Assembly: GCF_903064525.1 (NCBI RefSeq)
Contig: NZ_LR797830.1
Coordinates: 1,612,001-1,676,000 of the forward strand
Direction: 5' to 3'
Length of the DNA stretch: 64,000 nucleotides
From: Methylacidimicrobium sp. AP8
Lineage (GTDB): Bacteria; Verrucomicrobiota; Verrucomicrobiia; Methylacidiphilales; Methylacidiphilaceae
Shown one piece after another: positions 1,861-13,776 of this stretch (position 1 is its first letter; every line of letters starts with the position of its first letter). Below the pieces are notes generated by a model. It did no database searches. It had not been told where the DNA came from and saw nothing but the letters and a program-made list of their open reading frames with translations. A program made the translations under genes and the position numbers.

Positions 1861-2114
1861 GGTTCGCGGTGGGGCGATCGACCCGGCCCGCGCAACCCCT
1901 TTCCGCCCTCCGAGCCGCCGGCTTCCGGGCGAAAATCGAGCCCCTTCCCCCTTCCTTGGGCGAAGTTTCACCCGGTTCCGAGTCGGCTGCCCCGGCGATG
2001 GGAGTACTCCTGCGGTCCGGTTCCCGCCGCGCCCCGCTTCCCGGACCTGGAAGCGACGGTTTGCCCAAGACCGTCTCCTCTTTCGGCCTATTTCCTGCTC
2101 GCCTCACCCTCGCC

Positions 2115-4556
2115 ATGCTACGGACAAAGTCGCCACGCTTCCCGCTCGGTGCTCTTGTCGCCCTCTTCTTCGCTCTCCTCTCCCTAGGACACGCCGATCC
2201 GCCGGCCGACCCGCCCGCCGACTCCTCCGGCCCATCCGGCGAAGCGCCGTCGCTCGCAGGAGACACCGCCGGCGACCGCAAGCTCCGCAGCGCCCTCCAG
2301 CAGCCGAAGCATCCGGAGACCGGCCGATCCGACCTGGAAAAAGCGATATCGCAGCTGCCGGAAGTAGAGGTGGTCGCCGTCACCCCGCTGCCGGGAATGG
2401 GCCAGCCTCTGCAAAACCTGCCCGGCGATTACCAGATCCAGCAGGGGAAGACCTGGCTGCAACAGGAGGAGTTCAGCCTGCCCGAGTTCCTGGAACGGAA
2501 CATGGCGAGCGTGAACGAGGTCAACATAAACGGGAATCCGTTCCTTCCGAACATCAACTACCGGGGCTTCGCCGCCTCCCCCGTCCCCGGCACCCCCGTC
2601 GGGATCTCCGTCTTCCTGGACGGTGTCCGGATGAACGAGCCCTTCACCAACAACGTGCTCTGGGATTACATCCCGCAGCTTGCCGTGCAAAGCATGGAGG
2701 TGGTGCCGGGCTCCAACCCGATCTACGGCCAGAATACCCTAGGCGGGGCCCTTGTCCTGCAGACCAAGAGCGGCCGCACCAACCCGGGCTCGATGATTCA
2801 GGACTATGCGGGGGACTGGGGCACCAACGACCTCGAGTTCCAGCACGGCGGCTACAAGGGACACTGGGATTGGTTCTTGAGCGGCAACTGGATGAGCATG
2901 GAGGGCTGGCGCCAGCAGAGCTCGAGCTACGTCAAGCAGCTCTTCGCCAAGGTCGGATACCATATGGAGGAGACCGACGTGCACCTGGAATACCTGGGCG
3001 CCGACAACCTGCTGAACATCCTGGGGCCCACGCCGGCGGACATGCTCGGGGGAGCCTTCGGAAACTCGATGATCTACACCGGGCCGAATCCCCAATACGA
3101 CAATCTCCAGATGATCAACCTGCTCGCCTCGCAAAAGCTCACCGACGAGCTCACCCTGGGAGGCAACGCCTACTTCCGCGAGTCCAACTACTCCTTCAAC
3201 AACGGCAATATCGCCAACGACGTCTACCAGTTCCTGGGCTTCAACTATCCTCTGAACGGGCAGGCGTTGAATGCCGAAGGGATGCCCATTCCGGCGGGAG
3301 AGTGGGATTTCGGAACGATCGACCAGACCGGCGCGGGAGCCCGGCTCCAGCTCCAGTGGGAGAAGAGCTTTGCCGGCATGGAAAACTACGCGGTGGCGGG
3401 GGCCAGCTTCGATTGGGCGCAGTCTTTTTTCGACTCGGGCTTCTACCCGGCCGCGATGGGCCCCAACTACAACAACATCACGATTCCGGGGTATCCCTTC
3501 GAGAACCAGTTCGCCGTGCCGACCTTCACCGACTACGTCGGCCTCTACCTGACCGACACCTTTTCGCCCACGCCCTGGTTCCACCTGACGGGCGCCTTGA
3601 GGGATAACTACGCGCAGATGGTGATCGGCGGCACGGGGGTGGAAACCAGCGGGGAGATGGTCTCCCTGGCGGCGGCCGAACGCTTCCAGCAGGTCACCCC
3701 GGCCGCGGGCTTTACGTTCCAGCCGCTGGCCGCCTTCGGAGTCGCCGATCCGAACCTCAAGGATCTCACCTTCTTCTTCAACTACAGCGAGAGCTTCCGG
3801 CCGCCCATGCCGGGCGAGATCACGGGGGCGAACCCCGCCATCCCGGTGATCCTGCCGGTCGCCCAGCTGGGCGATCCGGTCCTCTCCCCGGTGCTGGCGC
3901 AGACCTTCGAGAGCGGCTTCCGCGGCTCGCTTGCTCCGGGGAACGTCGACTGGGCGTTGTCCTTTTATCGGACCGGCATCTCCAACAACATCATGTTCGA
4001 GCAGACCGGCCATTCGGCCGCCGGCTTTTTCCAGAACATCGGCGAAGAGCAAAATCAGGGGGTTGAAATCACCATCCAGGGGAGCTACAAGAAGCTCACC
4101 TGGTTCGCGAACTGGTCCTTCCTCGAGGCGACCTTCCAAAGCCCGCTGGTCCTCCAGAATGCCGTAAGCTCCGCTGTGCCTGTCCAACCCGGGAACCGGC
4201 AGCCGAACCTGCCCGAGCAGATGGTCAAGGCGGGGATCACCTACCAGATCCTGCCGCAATGGCAGGTCTCGATGGACTTCCAGTACTATTCGAGCCGGGT
4301 CCTCTACGGAGACTGGTCGAACATCTACCCGATGCTCACCGGCTTCGCCGTGCTCAACGTGCAAACCTATTATACGCTCAATAAGCACTGCCAGATTTTC
4401 GCCTATGCGACCAACGTCTACGACGAGCACTATGCGAGTGCGGGCCTCATCAGCCAAAACGTCTTCACGGGAGCCCCCAACGGCGGAACCATCATTCCCT
4501 TCCTCACGCCGGGATCTCCCTTCGGCGTCTGGGGCGGCGTCCGCCTCCAGTTTTGA
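2115..4556 (+). CDS. TonB-dependent outer-membrane receptor
   Basis: Predicted 22-strand outer-membrane transporter powered by TonB (813 aa). The ATG at 2115 is chosen because it is followed at once by a signal peptide (positive start, then LGALVALFFALLSLG, cleavage near GHA). A possible TonB box (VEVVAVTP) lies near residue 90. The plug domain follows, with NINGNPFLPNINYRGF, ISVFLDGVRMNEPF, VEVVPGSNPIYGQNTLGG and ALVLQTKSG. The barrel ends in GVRLQF with the terminal Phe expected of a BAM-inserted protein. It lies 69 bases upstream of a sensor kinase gene with no clear terminator between them. Substrate is unknown; the link to the lanthanide enzyme XoxF 3 kb downstream suggests a metal or metallophore, which is inference. 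Confidence 0.92.
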   Translation: MLRTKSPRFPLGALVALFFALLSLGHADPPADPPADSSGPSGEAPSLAGDTAGDRKLRSALQQPKHPETGRSDLEKAISQLPEVEVVAVTPLPGMGQPLQNLPGDYQIQQGKTWLQQEEFSLPEFLERNMASVNEVNINGNPFLPNINYRGFAASPVPGTPVGISVFLDGVRMNEPFTNNVLWDYIPQLAVQSMEVVPGSNPIYGQNTLGGALVLQTKSGRTNPGSMIQDYAGDWGTNDLEFQHGGYKGHWDWFLSGNWMSMEGWRQQSSSYVKQLFAKVGYHMEETDVHLEYLGADNLLNILGPTPADMLGGAFGNSMIYTGPNPQYDNLQMINLLASQKLTDELTLGGNAYFRESNYSFNNGNIANDVYQFLGFNYPLNGQALNAEGMPIPAGEWDFGTIDQTGAGARLQLQWEKSFAGMENYAVAGASFDWAQSFFDSGFYPAAMGPNYNNITIPGYPFENQFAVPTFTDYVGLYLTDTFSPTPWFHLTGALRDNYAQMVIGGTGVETSGEMVSLAAAERFQQVTPAAGFTFQPLAAFGVADPNLKDLTFFFNYSESFRPPMPGEITGANPAIPVILPVAQLGDPVLSPVLAQTFESGFRGSLAPGNVDWALSFYRTGISNNIMFEQTGHSAAGFFQNIGEEQNQGVEITIQGSYKKLTWFANWSFLEATFQSPLVLQNAVSSAVPVQPGNRQPNLPEQMVKAGITYQILPQWQVSMDFQYYSSRVLYGDWSNIYPMLTGFAVLNVQTYYTLNKHCQIFAYATNVYDEHYASAGLISQNVFTGAPNGGTIIPFLTPGSPFGVWGGVRLQF

Positions 4557-4625: not shown

Positions 4626-6077
4626 ATGAAGATCGCGACACGGATCCGCCTCGTCTCGGCCGCCTTCTTCCTCCTGGTGGGCGCGCTCTCGGTCGAGGCG
4701 GCCTGGATTGCCCTGCGCGGCCAGAAGCGGGTCGAGCAGGTGGGCGAGGAGTTAGCCCAGCTTTCGCGGCTAAGCGATCTGGAGCTCTTCGCGCAGCGTG
4801 AGGTCGCCGAGGTGGCCGATGCTCTCGGGGGCAAGGATCCCAAGGCCCGCGCCCAGTTCCTCTCTTTCGCCGGAGAGATGCGCGGGCTCCTCGGCCGCTG
4901 CCGCCCCCTCGCCCGCGGGGCGGAGGAAAGGGAAGCTCTCGACGCCGTCGAGCGAAACGCGCTCCTGCTCGAAAGGCGGGGCCGGGAGCTTCTCGACCGG
5001 CCCCCTCCTCCCGGCGGCGAAGGTTCGTTCGCCGGTGTCGACGCGCTGGAAGCCTTTCTCGACGGTCCGTTGCGCCAATCGGTCCAAACTCTGGAGCGGC
5101 TTTTCCACCAAGGGGCGATCGAGCGGGCGCGGGAGAAGGCCCGCCTGCTCAAGGAGACCGCCGCGCTGCTGGTTCCCCTCTGCTTCCTTGCCGGTCTCGG
5201 CCTGGCGGGGCTCGTCTCGCTCTGGCTCGCACAAGGAATCGGGCGCCCCTTGCGCAGTCTGGTCGAATCCGCCCAGCGGATCGGCCGCGGCGAGCTCGAG
5301 GCCATTCCGGAGATTTCCGCCTCGGGGGATCTCCGCGAGCTCGCCTCCGCCTTCCGCCAGATGGCCGGCGAGCTTAAGACCTCGCAGGAGAAGATCGTCC
5401 AAACCGAGCGGATGGCCTCCATCGGGGCGACGGCCGCCGCCGTCGCGCACGGAATCCGCAACCCGCTGGCGAGTATCCGGGCGCTGGCGCAAGTCGCTCT
5501 TCTGAAGCCCGCCCCCTCCGCCGCGACCGCGGATACCCTCGCGGAGATCATCCGCGAAACCGACCGGCTCGATCGGAGAATCCGCCAGCTGTTGAACTTC
5601 GCCAAGCCGCTCTCGCCCAGGCCGATGATCGGCAGCCTCAATGCGCTCGCCCAAACCGTCGTGCCGTCTCTGGCCAAAGGAAAGGATGTCGCCATCGACC
5701 TCTCCCTCGACCCCGGGCTCCCGCCCGTCCGTTTCGATCCGGCCCAAATGGAGCAGGTCCTGCTCGAAGTTTTGGAGAATTCCCTGGCGGCTGTCGGAGA
5801 CGGCGGCCGGATCCGGCTGAGCTCGGGGGTCCGGCCGGACGGCCGTGTCTTCCTGGAAATCGAAGACGACGGGGAAGGGATTGCCGAGGAGAACCTGCCT
5901 CGGGTGACCGAGCCCTTTTTCACGACACGGCCCGAAGGTTCCGGCTTGGGTCTGGCCATCGCGGAACGCTACGTTAGAGGAAACGGAGGCGAGATGCGGG
6001 CCGAAAGCCGGCTCGGCCGGGGAACGCGGATCACCCTGCTCTTCCCCGCCGCCTCGGAAGGGGGCAATGGGGCTTAA
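4626..6077 (+). CDS. Membrane sensor histidine kinase, NtrB/AtoS-like
   Basis: Sensor kinase (483 aa) that should phosphorylate the response regulator encoded by the next, overlapping gene. It has a first membrane segment at about residues 8-30, a periplasmic helical region, a second membrane segment at about 176-200, and a HAMP linker (about 200-250). The H-box contains VAHGIRNPLAS with the phospho-acceptor His275. The N-box (LENSLAAVGDGG) and G-boxes (EDDGEGI, GSGLGLAIAERYV) complete a normal HATPase domain. There is no PAS domain; sensing would be by the periplasmic part between the membrane segments. It overlaps the regulator gene by 11 bases, so the two are translationally coupled. The signal sensed is not known. 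Confidence 0.94.
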   Translation: MKIATRIRLVSAAFFLLVGALSVEAAWIALRGQKRVEQVGEELAQLSRLSDLELFAQREVAEVADALGGKDPKARAQFLSFAGEMRGLLGRCRPLARGAEEREALDAVERNALLLERRGRELLDRPPPPGGEGSFAGVDALEAFLDGPLRQSVQTLERLFHQGAIERAREKARLLKETAALLVPLCFLAGLGLAGLVSLWLAQGIGRPLRSLVESAQRIGRGELEAIPEISASGDLRELASAFRQMAGELKTSQEKIVQTERMASIGATAAAVAHGIRNPLASIRALAQVALLKPAPSAATADTLAEIIRETDRLDRRIRQLLNFAKPLSPRPMIGSLNALAQTVVPSLAKGKDVAIDLSLDPGLPPVRFDPAQMEQVLLEVLENSLAAVGDGGRIRLSSGVRPDGRVFLEIEDDGEGIAEENLPRVTEPFFTTRPEGSGLGLAIAERYVRGNGGEMRAESRLGRGTRITLLFPAASEGGNGA

Positions 6078-7458
6078 CATCCTCCTGGTCGAAGACGAAC
6101 GGAACCTCGCGCGGTCGATCGGCGAGCTTCTCACGGCCCAAGGCCATGAGGTGGCCCTGGCCTTCGACGGCAACGAAGGGCTCCGGCAAGCCGAACTCTC
6201 CGCTCCCGACCTGCTCCTCCTCGATGCCCGCCTGCCGGGCCTTCCGGGACCCGAGCTCCTCCGCCGAGCGCGGGCGATGCACCCCGCCCTGCCGGCGGTG
6301 GTCTTCACCGCCTACGCCTCCGTCGAGGACGCGGTCGCCGTGATGAAGCTCGGCGCTTTCGAATATCTGCAAAAGCCCCTCGACCTCGATCGGCTGCGCA
6401 TGCTGGTCGACCGGGTCGAGGAGACCGTCCGCCTCAGGCAAGAGCTCGCCTATTACCGGAGCCTCGACGAGCCGGTCCTGCTCGGGGAGTCGACGGCGAT
6501 CCGGTCGCTGCGCGAAAAGATCGACCAGCTGGGCCGGCTCGACGGCGGCCGGGGGCTTCCTACCGTTTTGCTCTCCGGCGAGACCGGAACCGGAAAGGAT
6601 GTCGTCGCCCGGCTCCTCCATCACCGGAGCTCGCGCCGGAACGAGGCCTTCCTGTCGATCAACTGCGTGGCGCTGCCCGAGAGCTTGGTCGAAGCCGAGC
6701 TCTTCGGCTACGAGCGGGGAGCGTTCACCGGCGCTTCGTTCGCCAAGCTCGGCCTGATGGAGGCGGCGGACAAGGGCACCCTCTTCCTCGACGAAATCGG
6801 GGACCTTCCCCTCGCCCTGCAAGGGAAGCTCCTGACGGCGATCGAACGCAAGACGGTGCGGCGCCTGGGAAGCGTTCGCGATCGCAAGGTCGATCCCTGG
6901 ATCCTCGCCGCCACCAACCGATCCCTGGAAAGCTTGGTCCGGGAAGGAGCCTTCCGCGCCGACCTCTACTACCGACTCCGCGTCGTCCATCTCGAGCTGC
7001 CTCCCTTGCGGGAGAGGACCGAAGACATCCCTCTTCTGGCAAATCACTTCCTCCGCGTCCACGGCAGCCGCTACGGAAAGGGGAACCGCACGCTCGCCCC
7101 GGATGCCGTGGCGGCCCTGCAAAAATATCCCTGGCCCGGCAACGTCCGCGAGCTTTCGCACGCGGTCGAGCAGGCGGTTCTCTGGTCCAAGGGAGAAATC
7201 CTGGGCGCCGCCGACTTCGCTTGGCCGGGGCCGCCCGCCCCCGCCCGCCGCGAGCCTCCGAGGAGCTGCGAGGAGGCGATCGGTTGGCTCCTGCGGGAGG
7301 GGCTCCCCTTTTCCGAAATCGAAAAACGGCTGCTCCAGCAGGCGCTGGAAGCCACGCGGCAGAACGTCTCCCAAGCCGCCCGCCAATTAGGCATGACCCG
7401 GGACATCCTCCGCTACCGGATGGAAAAGCACGGCATCGCCGTAGGAGAGCGTTCCTGA
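6067..7458 (+). CDS. NtrC-family sigma-54-dependent response regulator
   Basis: Transcription activator (463 aa) with three domains: receiver (about 1-120, phospho-Asp53 in LLLLDARLPG), AAA+ sigma-54 activation domain (about 140-375) and a Fis-type helix-turn-helix (about 415-460, VSQAARQLGMTRDILRYRM). The AAA+ part has Walker A GETGTGKD at 171-178, the GAFTGA loop at 218-223 that contacts sigma-54, and Walker B TLFLDEIGDLPL. All functional motifs are intact. It is coupled to the kinase gene upstream and stands immediately before xoxF, which has a sigma-54-like promoter at 7519-7534. The simplest reading is that this pair controls the xox genes, but no binding site could be proven from sequence alone. 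Confidence 0.95.
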   Translation: MGLNILLVEDERNLARSIGELLTAQGHEVALAFDGNEGLRQAELSAPDLLLLDARLPGLPGPELLRRARAMHPALPAVVFTAYASVEDAVAVMKLGAFEYLQKPLDLDRLRMLVDRVEETVRLRQELAYYRSLDEPVLLGESTAIRSLREKIDQLGRLDGGRGLPTVLLSGETGTGKDVVARLLHHRSSRRNEAFLSINCVALPESLVEAELFGYERGAFTGASFAKLGLMEAADKGTLFLDEIGDLPLALQGKLLTAIERKTVRRLGSVRDRKVDPWILAATNRSLESLVREGAFRADLYYRLRVVHLELPPLRERTEDIPLLANHFLRVHGSRYGKGNRTLAPDAVAALQKYPWPGNVRELSHAVEQAVLWSKGEILGAADFAWPGPPAPARREPPRSCEEAIGWLLREGLPFSEIEKRLLQQALEATRQNVSQAARQLGMTRDILRYRMEKHGIAVGERS

Positions 7459-7634: not shown

Positions 7635-9497
7635 ATGAGGTTCCTGAAACGTAAGAAAAGTCTCTCTGCCGGGATGCTCCTGGCACTGGCGGTCGGGTCC
7701 GCGGCGTCGATCCCGTCAGCCTATTCCAACGACGATGTGTTGAAGCTCACGGAGAATCCCAAGAATTGGGCGGCTCCGGGCAAGGATTACGCCAACACGC
7801 GCCACTCGCCCCTCAAACAGATCAACACGCAGAACGTCAAGGGCCTGCACATGGCCTGGTCGTTCTCGACCGGCGTGCTGCGCGGCCATGAAGGACAGCC
7901 GCTCGTGATCGGCGACCGCATGTACGTGGTGACTCCTTATCCCAACATCGTGTGGGCTCTCGACATCTCCAAGGGGAATTCCTACGAGGTCCTTTGGAAG
8001 TACGCGCCGCGGCAGGATGACAAGGCGGTCTCGACGGCCTGCTGCGACACGGTCAACCGCGGGGCTTCCTACGCCGACGGGAAGATCGTCTTCAACACCC
8101 TCGACGGATACGTCGTCTGCTTGGACGCCAACACGGGGAAAGAGCTTTGGAAGACCAAGTTTGCGGACGTGAACAAGGGCGAGACGAGCACTCCCGCGCC
8201 CATCATCGTCAAGGACAAGGTCGTCACCGGCTACGGGGGGGACGAGTTCGGCGCGCGGGGCCGCTTCGCCGCCTTCGATCTCAACTCGGGCAAGATGGTC
8301 TGGCAGGCCTACAGCAACGGTCCCGACTCGGACGTGCTGCTCGGGCCCGACTTCAACAGCAAGCATCCGGAGTACGGGCAGGCGGGCCAGGACCTCGGCG
8401 TCAAGACCTACCCCGACGAGGAGTGGAAGCGGGGCGGGGGCTGCGCCTGGGGCTGGTACAGCTATGACCCGAAGCTCGATCTGATCTACTACAACACCGG
8501 CAATCCCGGTCTCTGGAGCCCGAGCTACCGGACCGAGGCCAAGACCCATGAAGAGGCCAACGAGCCCTGGAAGTGGGACAACAAGTGGTCGATGACCATC
8601 TTCGCCCGCAAGCCCGACACGGGCGAGGCCGTTTGGGGCTACCAGATGACGCCGTTCGACCAGTGGGACTATGACGGCATCAACGAGGACGTCCTGGTCG
8701 ACATCACCGTCGACGGCTCCAAGAAGCCCTGCCTGGTCCACTTCGACCGCAACGGCTTCTGCTACGTCTTGAATCGAACCGACGGCACGATCATCCGCGC
8801 CAACAAGTTCGTGACGGTCAACTGGGCCGAGAAGATCGACATGAAGACGGGACGCCCGGTCAAGGTCAAGGAGCACTCCCCGTTCGAGGTCGGCAAGGCC
8901 GTGCAGGCCTACCCCTCCGCGATGGGAGGAAAAGACCAGCAGCCGGTCGCGGTCGATCCGAAGGAACCCAACGTCTTCTATGCGCCTACCAACAACTGGG
9001 GCATGACGCTGGAGCCGATGGAGCGCGCGCACACCAACCAGGGTAGCGTCTACGTCTTCGCCAACGTCCTGATGAAGCCCGAAAAGCCCGGCGTCATGGG
9101 CCGCTTCAAGGCGTTCGACGTGATCACCGGCAAGGCTCGCTGGGATATCCCGGAGCGGTTCCCGACCTGGAGCGGAGCCTTGGTCACCGACGGCGGGCTG
9201 GCCTTCTACGGCACCCTCGACGGCTGGTTCAAGGCGGTTGACCGGAAGACCGGCAAGGTCCTCTGGCAGCAGAAGCTCGGCTCCGGCATCATCGGCAACC
9301 CGATCTCCTACGAGGTGGGCGGCAAGCAGTACATTTCGGTCCTCTCCGGCATCGGCGGATGGATCGGACTCCCCGTCACTGCGGGCCTCGACCCGGCGGA
9401 TCCCTACGGCGCCCTCGGCGTCTCGGGGATGGCGGCAGAGAACGGGTTCTACAACATCCCGATGGGCGGAACGCTCTATACCTTCTGCGTCCAGTAG
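7635..9497 (+). CDS. xoxF: Lanthanide-dependent PQQ methanol dehydrogenase XoxF
   Basis: Periplasmic PQQ enzyme that oxidises methanol (and often formaldehyde) and passes electrons to cytochrome XoxG; 620 aa. The ATG at 7635 is chosen because it follows a strong GGAGGAGG ribosome site by 7 bases and opens a signal peptide (MRFLKRKK, hydrophobic core, cleavage near AYS-N). Family features: the adjacent-cysteine disulphide in STACCDTV that stacks on PQQ, repeated tryptophan-docking blades, and WDYDG with Asp345 plus Asp347. The second Asp is the residue that marks XoxF and coordinates the lanthanide; calcium-type MxaF lacks it. Only 21 bases separate it from xoxJ. No mxaI-like small subunit is present. 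Identification is very secure; clade XoxF2 is a guess from the apparent host. Confidence 0.97.
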   Translation: MRFLKRKKSLSAGMLLALAVGSAASIPSAYSNDDVLKLTENPKNWAAPGKDYANTRHSPLKQINTQNVKGLHMAWSFSTGVLRGHEGQPLVIGDRMYVVTPYPNIVWALDISKGNSYEVLWKYAPRQDDKAVSTACCDTVNRGASYADGKIVFNTLDGYVVCLDANTGKELWKTKFADVNKGETSTPAPIIVKDKVVTGYGGDEFGARGRFAAFDLNSGKMVWQAYSNGPDSDVLLGPDFNSKHPEYGQAGQDLGVKTYPDEEWKRGGGCAWGWYSYDPKLDLIYYNTGNPGLWSPSYRTEAKTHEEANEPWKWDNKWSMTIFARKPDTGEAVWGYQMTPFDQWDYDGINEDVLVDITVDGSKKPCLVHFDRNGFCYVLNRTDGTIIRANKFVTVNWAEKIDMKTGRPVKVKEHSPFEVGKAVQAYPSAMGGKDQQPVAVDPKEPNVFYAPTNNWGMTLEPMERAHTNQGSVYVFANVLMKPEKPGVMGRFKAFDVITGKARWDIPERFPTWSGALVTDGGLAFYGTLDGWFKAVDRKTGKVLWQQKLGSGIIGNPISYEVGGKQYISVLSGIGGWIGLPVTAGLDPADPYGALGVSGMAAENGFYNIPMGGTLYTFCVQ

Positions 9498-9518: not shown

Positions 9519-11135
9519 ATGCATCTCACGGAAAAGGGCGGGCCGAACCGAAGGGCTTGGTCCGCCCTTTTCCTCATTCTCTTCCTGGTCCTCCCGCCGG
9601 CCCTCTCCGGCCAGTCGGCCGAGCCGCCGCTGCGCGTTTGCGGGGACCCGGGAAACATGCCGCTCTCCAACAGCCGCGGAGAGGGCTTTCAGAACAAGAT
9701 CGCCGAGCTGCTCGCCGGCACCTTGGGCAAGCCGCTCGAATACTTCTGGTACACCTATTACGAACGCGGGCTCGTCCGGGCGACCCTCAACGCGAGCCGC
9801 TGCGATGTCCTTTTCGACATGCCGCCCGACTTCGAGCCGGCTCTGCCGACCAAGCCCTATTACAAGTCGACCTTCGTTCTGGTCACCCGGAAGGACCGCA
9901 ACCTCCATATCCATTCTCTCGACGACCCGGTCCTTAAGAACCTCCGAATCGGCGTCTTCCAAGCCTCGGCCGCGCGCGACGCCCTTCGCAACCACGGCAT
10001 CCAGCACAACACGGTCGTCCATTACATCTTTTATGATTCGCGGGTGCACCCTGAGCAGCATCCCGCCGAGCAGGTCGAGCAGGTGATCCAGGGCACTCTC
10101 GACGCCTGTGCGATCTGGGGGCCCATGGCCGGATACTACGTTGCCAAGGCCAAGGCCCCCCTCGACATCACTCCGTTGAACACCATGGAGGACACCGTCC
10201 CGCTCGAATACGCGATGGCGCTGGCCGTTCCCAAGGGCGCCAAGGATCTGCGCGACGCCCTCAACCAAGCGATGGAGGCGCGCAAGGCCGATATCCGGCG
10301 GATCCTGACTGAATACGGCGTTCCGCTCGTCCACTGCCCGGAATGCATCGTGGACGGCGACCTTCCCGCGCATTCCGGCGGGTACAAGCCGCTGCCCCCG
10401 CCCCCCGCTCCCCAAGCCGCATCCACCGAGCACGATTCTCTGCAGGACTGCGTTACTGCGGACGACCTCCCGGCGGCCGAACGGTTGCTTGCAAAGAATC
10501 CGAAGGCCGTCGACGGGAAGGATCCGCTCGGCTTTACTCCCCTCTTGAACGCGATCCGCATGGAGGAATGGCCGATGGTCCGGCTCCTCCTGCAAAAGGG
10601 AGCCGACCCCAACCTGCCGGATCCCGAGGGGTGGACCCCGCTGCTCTTTGCGGTCTCCAAAGGGAATCCCGAGACGGTCCGCCTCTTGCTGGAGCGCGGG
10701 GCGCGCGCCACGGTAACGGCCAAGGACGGATGGACTCCCCTCGCTCTTGCGGCGAGCGGTTCGGACCCCGAGCTCGTCCGCATCCTTCTCGACCATGGGG
10801 CTCCGATAAACGGGAAGAGCGGCCCGGGAGGCTATACTCCGCTGATGTTCGCAGCCGCTTCCGGCTCCGAAGCGGTGACCCGCTTGCTCCTTGCGCGCGG
10901 AGCCGATCCGAACGCCGCCAACCCTGCGGGAGTCACCGCGCTCATGCTGGCGGTCTCCCGCAACCGGCCGCCGATCGTCGAACTTCTCCTGCACGCGGGT
11001 GCCCGCCCGGACCAGCGGAACCGTGAAGGGAAGACTGCGCTTGCCCTCGCGCAGGAAAGGGGCTATCAAACGCTCGCCTCCCTCTTGGAAAGAGCGAGCG
11101 GCCCGACGAAGACGACCATGCCTCCCGCCCGGTAG
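9519..11135 (+). CDS. xoxJ: XoxJ-like periplasmic binding protein fused to ankyrin repeats
   Basis: Two-part secreted protein of 538 aa. After a signal peptide (LFLILFLVLPPALSG), residues about 36-285 form a solute-binding-like domain starting LRVCGDPGNMPLSN, as in the MxaJ/XoxJ proteins thought to assist maturation or activation of methanol dehydrogenase. A proline-rich linker (about 290-300, PLPPPPAPQ) leads to about six ankyrin repeats filling residues 305-530, with typical GWTPL, VRLLLERGA and GADPN motifs. Ordinary XoxJ proteins end at about 280 residues, so the ankyrin half is extra. Its place between xoxF and xoxG supports the XoxJ call. The ankyrin part presumably binds a protein partner in the periplasm; which one is not known. 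Confidence 0.9.
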   Translation: MHLTEKGGPNRRAWSALFLILFLVLPPALSGQSAEPPLRVCGDPGNMPLSNSRGEGFQNKIAELLAGTLGKPLEYFWYTYYERGLVRATLNASRCDVLFDMPPDFEPALPTKPYYKSTFVLVTRKDRNLHIHSLDDPVLKNLRIGVFQASAARDALRNHGIQHNTVVHYIFYDSRVHPEQHPAEQVEQVIQGTLDACAIWGPMAGYYVAKAKAPLDITPLNTMEDTVPLEYAMALAVPKGAKDLRDALNQAMEARKADIRRILTEYGVPLVHCPECIVDGDLPAHSGGYKPLPPPPAPQAASTEHDSLQDCVTADDLPAAERLLAKNPKAVDGKDPLGFTPLLNAIRMEEWPMVRLLLQKGADPNLPDPEGWTPLLFAVSKGNPETVRLLLERGARATVTAKDGWTPLALAASGSDPELVRILLDHGAPINGKSGPGGYTPLMFAAASGSEAVTRLLLARGADPNAANPAGVTALMLAVSRNRPPIVELLLHAGARPDQRNREGKTALALAQERGYQTLASLLERASGPTKTTMPPAR

Positions 11136-11172: not shown

Positions 11173-11649
11173 ATGAAGAGAGGAAAACGCACTACGTATT
11201 GGACACGCTATCTGCTACCCGGGTTGGCCGGACTTTGGCTCACCGCAGCGGGAGCGCAACAGCCATCAGCGGCCACGCAGCCCGCCGCGGGCGCGGGCGG
11301 CGCTATGAAAAACCCCTATACCGACAAGCCGGAGGCCATCGCAGAGGGAAGAAAGCTCTGGTTCAGCCGCAGCTGCAACGGATGCCACGGAGGAATGGGG
11401 GGAGGAGGGATGTGTCCGCCGGTCATCAACGACACGTGGGTCTACGGCAGCGACGACAAGACCCTTTTCGAGCTCATCAAGTACGGCAGCGTCGAGCTCC
11501 AGAAGAAGGGCTACACGCGCATCGGACGGGAGAACGTCGTAGGGCCGATGCCTCCCTTCGGCAGCGTCCTGAGCGACGACGACATTTGGAAGGTGCTCGC
11601 CTACGTGCGCTCGATCTATCGCGGGGATCCCAAGCTGCGGAACTGGTAG
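11173..11649 (+). CDS. xoxG: Cytochrome c electron acceptor of XoxF (XoxG-like)
   Basis: Small periplasmic class I c-type cytochrome (158 aa) expected to take electrons from XoxF. The ATG at 11173 follows a CCGGAG ribosome site and opens a signal peptide (YLLPGLAGLWLTAAGAQQ). The haem attachment motif CNGCH is at residues 68-72, and the probable distal ligand is Met126 in GPMPPFG. A glycine-rich loop (GGMGGGGM) follows the haem motif. The C-terminal helix (DDDIWKVLAYVRSIY) is typical of this fold. It is a separate gene here, while some verrucomicrobial methanotrophs are reported to carry a fused XoxGJ. It lies 37 bases after the xoxJ-like gene. Confidence 0.92.
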   Translation: MKRGKRTTYWTRYLLPGLAGLWLTAAGAQQPSAATQPAAGAGGAMKNPYTDKPEAIAEGRKLWFSRSCNGCHGGMGGGGMCPPVINDTWVYGSDDKTLFELIKYGSVELQKKGYTRIGRENVVGPMPPFGSVLSDDDIWKVLAYVRSIYRGDPKLRNW

Positions 11650-11725: not shown

Positions 11726-12469
11726 ATGGCCGCCTCGTCCGCTTCCCCCGCGCAGCCCCGCCGAAATCGCTCCGGTATCTTTTTGCGCCCCGCCGGCGCC
11801 GTCCTGCTCTGCGTCCTGATCTTCTCCGTACCGATCGACCCTTCCCTCGCCCAATTCGTTCAGCTCGTTTCCGCCCGGAAATACTACACGCTCTACCTTT
11901 CTTCGGGACCGAACGGGGGGCAGGAGCCGCTGCTGCGCGAGATCTTCCTTTCCCGGTTCCGCAACTTCGGCCCGACCTTCCTCAACTCCGTCTGGCACGA
12001 CGAGCTGCCCGGGCAGCCTTATCTCGAATACCGGGATTCGATCGACGGGAAGCCGATCCCGGCACGGAAGATCGGCAACGCCTATTGGGATCAGGTGGCT
12101 TTCCCGGGCGGCCGGGAAATCGAGCTGCGCACCGACGCCCTCCAAAGAGTGCTGCCGCGCGATCCCGCCCGAAAGATCGACTTCTTCGAGGATTCGATCC
12201 AATGGAGCGGCTGGCGCCCGCCCATCGAGGATTACTGGATCGTCGTCGATCTGGGAAAGATGTACGCTTCCTTCCGCCGAGCCCCCGCCTTCGGCCTGGG
12301 GGGCTCGGCCCCGCCGGCTTTTCCGGAGTTTCTCGCCAATCAAGTGGTCCGGGTGCTTCCCGCCGGTTACCGGGTTCAAGGAAGCACGATCTGGTGGCAC
12401 TTCCGCCGGATTTACGCCCCGCAAGGGTTCACGACGCTCCACGTCGAGTGGAAGGCTTGGTATCGTTAG
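11726..12469 (+). CDS. Secreted protein of unknown family, paralogue A (xox-linked)
   Basis: Unknown function. 247 aa with an N-terminal signal peptide (PAGAVLLCVLIFSVPIDPSLAQ), so periplasmic or outer-surface. No cofactor motif or cysteine pair is visible; the mature part is rich in aromatic residues. It is clearly paralogous to the protein at 46977-47729. Shared blocks include QLVSAR-x-YYTL-x-LS near the mature N-terminus, RKID-x-FED, WRPP followed by YWIVVDLG, FLAN-x-V, GYR-x2-GS-x-IWW and a C-terminal AWYR. It follows xoxG by 76 bases in the same direction and may belong to the same transcript. A MITE-like element is inserted directly at its stop codon without altering the protein. Confidence 0.85.
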   Translation: MAASSASPAQPRRNRSGIFLRPAGAVLLCVLIFSVPIDPSLAQFVQLVSARKYYTLYLSSGPNGGQEPLLREIFLSRFRNFGPTFLNSVWHDELPGQPYLEYRDSIDGKPIPARKIGNAYWDQVAFPGGREIELRTDALQRVLPRDPARKIDFFEDSIQWSGWRPPIEDYWIVVDLGKMYASFRRAPAFGLGGSAPPAFPEFLANQVVRVLPAGYRVQGSTIWWHFRRIYAPQGFTTLHVEWKAWYR

Positions 12470-12678: not shown

Positions 12679-13776
12679 TCAGGGCAGATCGAGACTCCCG
12701 TAAGCGCGGGGATAGGTGAAGACGCCCCAAGGCAACGGGATCCCTCCGAGGACCTTGCGAAGCCGGTAGCTCTCCGCGTCGAAAACCAGCAGCTCGTTGG
12801 AGCGGCCGCAGGCGGCCAGGATCTTCCCTCCGTCGGGAGTATAGGTAAAATGCCAACAGCGGTCTCCGACCGGCATCTCCCGGACGAGCTTCCGGGTCTT
12901 GGCATCGAAAACCTGGAGCTTCTTGGCGCGCGAGGCGGCCACGAGGAAGTGCGCCCCCTGCGGATCAAAGGAAATCCCGTAGGGCCCGGCCCCGGTCGCC
13001 ACCGAAGCGAGGAAGTGCAGGTCCCTGTCCAGCACGACCACGTTGCCCGAACTCTCGAGCGAGACCAGGTACTGGTTGCCGTCGGGAGAACGCTTGACCC
13101 CCCGCGGCCGATGTCCGTACGGCCGGAGATCGACCCGCTCGACTTCCTTGCCGCTCTCCAGGTCGTAGACCCGCAGGGAATCCTCCGACTCGTTGGCGCA
13201 CAGCATCCTCTTCCCGTCGGCCGACAGCTCGATCCCCTCGGTATCCACGCTCGCGGGGAAGGTCCGCACGATCTCCCAGCTCTCGACGTCGATCTCGACG
13301 ATCCGGGCCGCGGTTTTCGCCCCGGCCTCTTCCTGCCTCTCCTGTTCGGCCTCGCTCCGCTGCCGCTTGGACGGCGCGCCCTCCGATGCCGGCTCATGGG
13401 CGACGAAAAACCGGCGGCCGTCGAGGCTGAACTTGAGGAACTCGGGCTTGGGCCCAATCGGGATCCGACGAACGACGTGCCGCTTCTTAAGATCGATCAC
13501 CGTCACGTCCTGGGTCCCCTTGTTCGCCGTCACGACAAAGCGGCCGTCCCGGGTGACACCGATTCCGCGGGGACCCGCCTTCGGCAGCGGGAAGCGCCGG
13601 GTCACCGTCATCTTCTCCAAGTCGATCGCCACGACCCCGAACGGCTCCGAGCTCACGTAAGCGACGGCGGCAGCTCCGCGATTGCCGGCGAGCAGCCAGA
13701 AAGCGGCCATCAGCACGCCGGCGGCCTGCCCGAACCTCCGCAGCCGACCCGGGGAGACAAGACCCATTTTCTTCAT
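12679..13776 (-). CDS. YVTN-type beta-propeller protein, exported
   Basis: Exported beta-propeller of 365 aa. After a signal peptide (GVLMAAFWLLAGNRGAAA) there are about seven repeats of the YVTN kind, with VAIDLEKMTVTRRFPL, VTVIDLKKRHVVRRIPIG, LRVYDLESGKEVERVDL and LQVFDAKTRKLVREMPVG. Proteins of this type are often found near PQQ-dependent alcohol oxidation genes, which fits the xox neighbourhood, but the exact role is unknown. A highly charged insertion (about residues 128-155, Lys/Arg/Glu/Gln-rich) interrupts one blade. The ATG at 13776 has AAGGA only 3 bases upstream; the ATG at 13767 would have a spacing of 12, so either may be used. It is convergent with the xox genes across the MITE. 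Confidence 0.88.
   Translation of the reverse strand: MKKMGLVSPGRLRRFGQAAGVLMAAFWLLAGNRGAAAVAYVSSEPFGVVAIDLEKMTVTRRFPLPKAGPRGIGVTRDGRFVVTANKGTQDVTVIDLKKRHVVRRIPIGPKPEFLKFSLDGRRFFVAHEPASEGAPSKRQRSEAEQERQEEAGAKTAARIVEIDVESWEIVRTFPASVDTEGIELSADGKRMLCANESEDSLRVYDLESGKEVERVDLRPYGHRPRGVKRSPDGNQYLVSLESSGNVVVLDRDLHFLASVATGAGPYGISFDPQGAHFLVAASRAKKLQVFDAKTRKLVREMPVGDRCWHFTYTPDGGKILAACGRSNELLVFDAESYRLRKVLGGIPLPWGVFTYPRAYGSLDLP

Follow-up and report, generated by a model that had tools for sequence, protein, structure and literature searches.

Lanthanide-dependent methanol oxidation still poses the question of what XoxJ does. In Methylorubrum extorquens, deletion of xoxJ amounts to loss of XoxF for growth on methanol with La (PMC7391723), and one report proposes that XoxJ and MxaJ bind the partly folded apo-enzyme for insertion of PQQ and metal (PMC12997753). 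A complex of MxaF with MxaJ has been solved by cryo-EM (9ISM), and this complex shows that the XoxJ/MxaJ family can bind the large subunit of a methanol dehydrogenase. The XoxJ of M. extorquens AM1 (6ONP) stands alone at 284 residues; MxaJ (9ISM and 9ISO in complex, 5SV6 alone) belongs to a calcium-type system; and in XoxGJ of Methylacidiphilum fumariolicum SolV, from a sister genus of Methylacidimicrobium, a XoxJ-type domain is fused to a cytochrome and goes with XoxF2. The XoxF1 clade is little understood; calcium has been reported in the Methylomirabilis enzyme and repression by lanthanum in Methylocella (PMC9291206), and an Asp next to the metal-binding Glu is diagnostic for the clade (PMC8546591). 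The published loci of strain AP8 are cirA (1697), xoxF1 (1700), xoxJ (1701), and xoxG (1702), and its xoxJ was transcribed in a chemostat, less than xoxG (PMC7907005).

We analyzed a window of 64,000 nucleotides from AP8 (the whole stretch of DNA considered here), which lies in a complete chromosome of 2.30 Mb; features are on the forward strand unless stated otherwise. The window encodes a lanthanide methanol dehydrogenase of 620 aa, xoxF1 (7635..9497), which matches the crystallized Nd-XoxF1 of Methylacidimicrobium thermophilum AP8 (7O6Z) over residues 1-620 with 1477 bits, equal to the self-score. It carries the motif GGDEFG, in which the diagnostic Asp203 (Asp172 in the numbering of the paper) sits beside the metal-binding Glu, and it has a clade insertion at about residues 302-314. 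Given this match and a locus order that agrees with PMC7907005, the gene that follows, here called xoxJ-ank, very probably corresponds to the locus published as "xoxJ" (MTHMO_v1_1701), an annotation that conceals a second domain.

The initial annotation had described xoxJ-ank as one uninterrupted frame, and its coordinates proved exact: the gene (9519..11135) starts with ATG at 9519, stops at 11133-11135, has no internal stop, and encodes 538 aa. The predicted export signal was likewise recovered, from sequence alone, at residues 1 to ∼35 (9519..9623); its hydrophobic core (∼15-30) fits a Sec signal that would direct the product to the periplasm, and an AlphaFold2 model has a helix at residues 12-23. 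The MxaJ/XoxJ-type binding domain occupies residues 38-271 (9630..10331) and matched TIGR03871 at 274.2 bits (cut-off 212.15), covering positions 2-232 of the 232-position profile. A sequence search matched this half to the solved XoxJ 6ONP (E 9e-42) and also to 5SV6 and the MxaJ chain of 9ISM, and Foldseek listed 6ONP (E 2.1e-14, TM(target) 0.86), 5SV6 (0.77), and 9ISM chain B (0.75). The calcium-system profile TIGR03870 (MoxJ) scored 131.5 bits, under its cut-off of 258.1. The combination of SBP_bac_3 and ankyrin families that had been suggested for a domain search was borne out for the ankyrin part; PF00497 (SBP_bac_3) reached 23.7 bits (E 4.4e-5) and fell below its gathering score of 26.4, as a related superfamily whose place was taken by the more specific TIGR03871. 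We conclude that, by sequence and by gene context, the protein belongs to the XoxJ/MxaJ family and carries an additional ankyrin domain. It shares with AM1 XoxJ the binding domain, the two conserved cysteines (C41 and C95), and an encoding gene that accompanies xoxF and xoxG, and with MxaJ the fold; unlike the fusion, neither has an ankyrin arm.

Past the XoxJ domain lies a hinge of the form C-x2-C-x3-G-x4-H (C273, C276, G280, and H285; residues 272-289, 10332..10385), which marks the fused clade described below. It is followed by the proline-rich flexible linker that had been read from the sequence (residues 290-304, 10386..10430), the least conserved part of the protein, with a pLDDT of ∼47 at residues 291-300. 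The AlphaFold2 model (mean pLDDT 81, pTM 0.56) comprised a binding-protein fold and an ankyrin stack joined by a stretch that is disordered near residues 290-302; at that pTM the placing of the two halves relative to each other is unreliable. The ankyrin domain (residues 305-528, 10431..11102) matched PF00023 (136.3 bits, 7.6e-41) and PF12796 (136.9 bits), both far over cut-off. Six repeats had been counted originally, because the first helix pair lacks the G-x-T-[PA]-L signature; the model instead contains seven pairs, at residues 308-326, 341-359, 374-392, 407-425, 441-459, 474-492, and 507-527.

Comparison of the model by VIA-align gave Z values up to 29.7 with ankyrin structures; the matches listed were mostly ankyrin proteins, the XoxJ half having been matched through Foldseek. 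Gankyrin and Nas6 (1UOH and 1IXV) resemble the arm in repeat number and arrangement (1UOH, Z 28.1, rmsd 1.7 over 219 residues). Both are chaperones built from seven ankyrin repeats that assist assembly of the proteasome. They differ from the fusion in being eukaryotic and cytosolic and in having no XoxJ half, and the fold match is no proof of a shared function. A bacterial comparison is offered by AnkB of Pseudomonas aeruginosa, a periplasmic ankyrin protein tied to the catalase KatB and encoded beside the enzyme it supports; it is likewise an exported ankyrin protein whose gene neighbors that of a periplasmic enzyme, but it has no XoxJ domain and serves another enzyme. Periplasmic ankyrin proteins with a known partner are few, and the fusion would be a useful model. 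Assignment as a type IV-secreted ankyrin effector was rejected, with scores of 87.8/600 bits for AnkH, 65.0/600 for AnkY, 56.6/500 for AnkG, and 47.4/1400 for AnkX reflecting repeat similarity only.

A fusion read from one genome could be an error, and a frameshift at the join or separate genes in relatives had been named as outcomes that would overturn it. Neither was found. The same full-length fusion recurs in independent genomes at 79-84% identity, and in more distant ones at 44-47%, which excludes a sequencing or assembly error at the join. It was present in six of six Methylacidimicrobium congeners searched (one copy, in G003, begins at a contig edge). The proposal that it might also occur in the sister genus did not hold: plain XoxJ frames of 297-360 codons occur in Methylacidiphilum-type genomes and in the family's third genus, and among 289 Verrucomicrobiota genomes we saw no further fusion outside Methylacidimicrobium. 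In a genome-wide scan the relatives at 44-47% identity, also full-length, came from Gammaproteobacteria, namely Rudaea, a Rhodanobacter MAG, and bog or soil MAGs. Of 299 genomes from the order that includes Rudaea, 17 had a match over cut-off, and of the 14 read, 13 were fused and one (G343) unfused; 398 Pseudomonadota genomes yielded fused genes in only three. A search of 397 genomes from the alphaproteobacterial family to which L074 belongs (titled Methylobacteriaceae) gave 14 fused loci that we read, in 12 genomes. The carriers are Methylacidimicrobium, Xanthomonadales-type Gammaproteobacteria, and Beijerinckiaceae-type Alphaproteobacteria; across these three classes and two phyla, a fused XoxJ is the standard arrangement next to XoxF1-clade enzymes.

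One alphaproteobacterial locus (L191), with the order xoxF1, fusion, xoxG, and a periplasmic binding protein, fits Methylocella silvestris Msil_3149-3146 by position and gene order, which would make its fusion Msil_3148. Proteomics of that organism detected XoxJ1, whose level dropped 62-fold with lanthanum alongside XoxF1 and XoxG1 (PMC9291206). We found no paper that mentions XoxJ and ankyrin together in the open literature, outside which most subscription journals fall, and the word ankyrin is absent from PMC7907005 and PMC8498564; as far as this literature shows, an ankyrin-bearing XoxJ appears not to have been described previously.

We compared substitution rates along the protein in six Methylacidimicrobium sequences. 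Median dN/dS was lowest in the XoxJ half (0.06), rose to 0.14 in the ankyrin half, and reached 0.41 in the signal, the fastest part, indicating that both halves are kept by purifying selection. That the join is an artifact, or the arm a neutral passenger, is barely credible: the faster evolution of the repeats relative to the XoxJ half is all that speaks for it, while selection on the arm is clearly purifying and the fusion is common to independent isolates and metagenome genomes. We did not find a conserved binding patch on the arm; positions that contact the target in designed ankyrin proteins were no more conserved than the framework (mean 0.27-0.55).

In a tree of XoxJ domains built with the ankyrin columns omitted, the 49 fused proteins formed one clade (support 100/99, present in 200 of 200 bootstrap trees), and a tree with 35 rows again recovered it. 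Methylacidimicrobium grouped amid the gammaproteobacterial fused proteins, away from XoxJ proteins of the family it belongs to, a placement implying that the cassette has moved between phyla. The dehydrogenases tell a matching story. Every readable XoxF adjoining a fusion belongs to the XoxF1 clade, and in the XoxF tree the enzymes of fused cassettes form one clade, save for the second xoxF1 copy of an LP2A-type genome. The stretch from NPGxWSPxxR to DNKW is 14-16 residues long in 41 of 41 XoxF from fused cassettes, compared with 2-3 residues in 44 of 46 others (the exceptions being one of 8 residues and the LP2A-type copy). The XoxF1-diagnostic residue is D in 29, N in 10, and A in one of the fused-cassette enzymes; in the others it is mostly G (23) or A (22). 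This link covers the Methylacidimicrobium, gammaproteobacterial, and alphaproteobacterial cassettes. Because the fusion arose once, the XoxF1 link, the insertion, and the arm belong together as features of a single clade and do not count as independent functional evidence, and the clade insertion and the ankyrin arm may have only their history in common. The second XoxF1 copy of the LP2A-type genome (L170, G001:C1:711351-713123) has no adjacent xoxJ; the only XoxJ-type gene of that genome is a fusion, sited away from this copy.

The fusion sets XoxF1 cassettes apart from others and marks a whole clade. Domain fusions often join partners that meet in the cell, and the strict association makes XoxF1 the most economical partner for the arm. 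We propose, giving it a roughly even chance, that the fusion is a dedicated maturation or activation factor for XoxF1, in which the XoxJ half docks on apo-XoxF1 and the ankyrin arm provides a second grip on the same enzyme. The protein would be exported to the periplasm, where its XoxJ half would bind immature XoxF1 in the manner of MxaJ on MxaF and keep it receptive to PQQ and metal. Through the CxxC hinge and flexible linker, the seven-repeat arm would add a grip specific to XoxF1, perhaps on the clade-specific loop, and the finished enzyme would pass electrons to XoxG, the product of the next gene. That the arm contacts XoxF1, and that assembly is its purpose, are points we infer. The arm is detachable and lends itself to truncation, exchange, or bait experiments, offering a handle on XoxF1 assembly. 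A bolder version, which we regard as quite unlikely, is that the two-armed factor clamps an XoxF1-specific loop and has a say in whether lanthanide or calcium is supplied to the enzyme, making XoxF1 a distinct subsystem; if true, such a clamp could bear on the reports of calcium in Methylomirabilis and of lanthanum repression in Methylocella.

The hinge itself invites another interpretation. C273 and C276, just past the XoxJ domain, are present in 49 of 49 fused proteins, and no CxxC was seen in the tails of unfused XoxJs among the rows that reach the tail. The fusion might then act on XoxF1 as a thiol-disulfide or metal-handling factor, with the arm only positioning the CxxC; a Cys pair within the clade insertion of alpha- and gammaproteobacterial XoxF1 would suit such a role. 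We consider it very unlikely, as the Methylacidimicrobium XoxF1 keeps company with the CxxC yet has no insertion Cys pair, the vicinal disulfide motif also occurs in other XoxF types, paired with a XoxJ that lacks the CxxC, and a plain structural disulfide is simpler. In the XoxF rows shown (L026-L041, L135-L147, and L191-L204), both cysteines at ∼302-314 are present in the alpha- and gammaproteobacterial enzymes, and Methylacidimicrobium is without either.

The arm might instead hold the electron acceptor. xoxG (11173..11649) encodes a separate c-type cytochrome of 158 aa (PF13442, PF00034), and the operon runs xoxF1, xoxJ-ank, xoxG, the genes being separated by 21 and 37 bases, an F-J-G order that differs from the F-G-J order of M. 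extorquens AM1. This order is repeated in gamma- and alphaproteobacterial loci, and in nearly all fused cassettes read, xoxG comes directly after the fusion. Such adjacency, together with the fusion of XoxG to XoxJ in Methylacidiphilum (PMC8498564), where closeness of the two is evidently favored, would agree with an arm that binds XoxG or another component of the electron chain and so tethers the dehydrogenase to its acceptor, and is not an assembly clamp. We think this unlikely, however, given that xoxG remains a separate gene in the fused cassettes and that the tightest correlations are with XoxF1. A Pfam search detected no cytochrome c domain in the fusion chain, and with xoxG as a gene of its own the AP8 fusion is not of the Methylacidiphilum XoxGJ type; the partner domain in AP8 is the ankyrin repeats and in SolV the cytochrome.

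Upstream of xoxF1 are a TonB-dependent receptor (1869..4556; PF00593, PF07715), which by locus order is the published cirA and a candidate for lanthanide uptake (PMC7907005), a histidine kinase (4626..6077; HAMP, HisKA, HATPase_c), and its partner, a sigma-54-type response regulator (6067..7458; Sigma54_activat, Response_reg). In most gammaproteobacterial loci a sigma-54 activator homologue lies downstream of xoxG. A sigma-54 promoter of the form TGGC-N7-TGC was unmatched in the intergenic stretch before xoxF1, and matches overall were at chance level. Ankyrin domains being general binding modules, the arm might anchor XoxJ elsewhere in the periplasm, to the membrane, the wall, an uptake receptor, or a PQQ or lanthanide carrier, and both the TonB receptor in the cluster and the unexplained periplasmic proteins on its flanks could be cited in favor. 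We find this improbable, since the flanking genes beyond xoxF1, xoxJ, and xoxG vary between phyla while the arm is conserved, and we retain XoxF1 as the preferred partner.

Two further genes follow the cassette. Directly after xoxG, positions 11726-12469 encode a 247-aa protein with no Pfam or NCBIfam match, found genus-wide at 66-74% identity; one genome has an additional copy ahead of xoxF1 (L023, 3200-3952). On the reverse strand, 12682-13776 encodes a beta-propeller related to the PQQ-dependent catabolism-associated family TIGR03866, although its score of 124 of 287 bits is below cut-off. Distant homologues of the propeller occur near many gammaproteobacterial cassettes, and a similar one lies near the Methylocella-like locus L191.

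Two xoxF genes and a single TIGR03871 gene are present in the genome. Outside the window lies the gene for XoxF2, the other methanol dehydrogenase (G000:C1:1686688-1688808; L154/L155), and no TIGR03871 gene was found near it in this genome. Unlike the XoxF2 of sister genera, that of Methylacidimicrobium has ACYDT at the vicinal Cys-Cys motif and GYD at the DYD motif, and the altered motifs agreed in five of five genomes read by motif search in this genus of seven (L156, L157, L159, and L161 among the loci). Judged from these motifs, Methylacidimicrobium XoxF2 seems to have lost key residues and may be inactive or repurposed; published work has treated it as a second, barely expressed enzyme.
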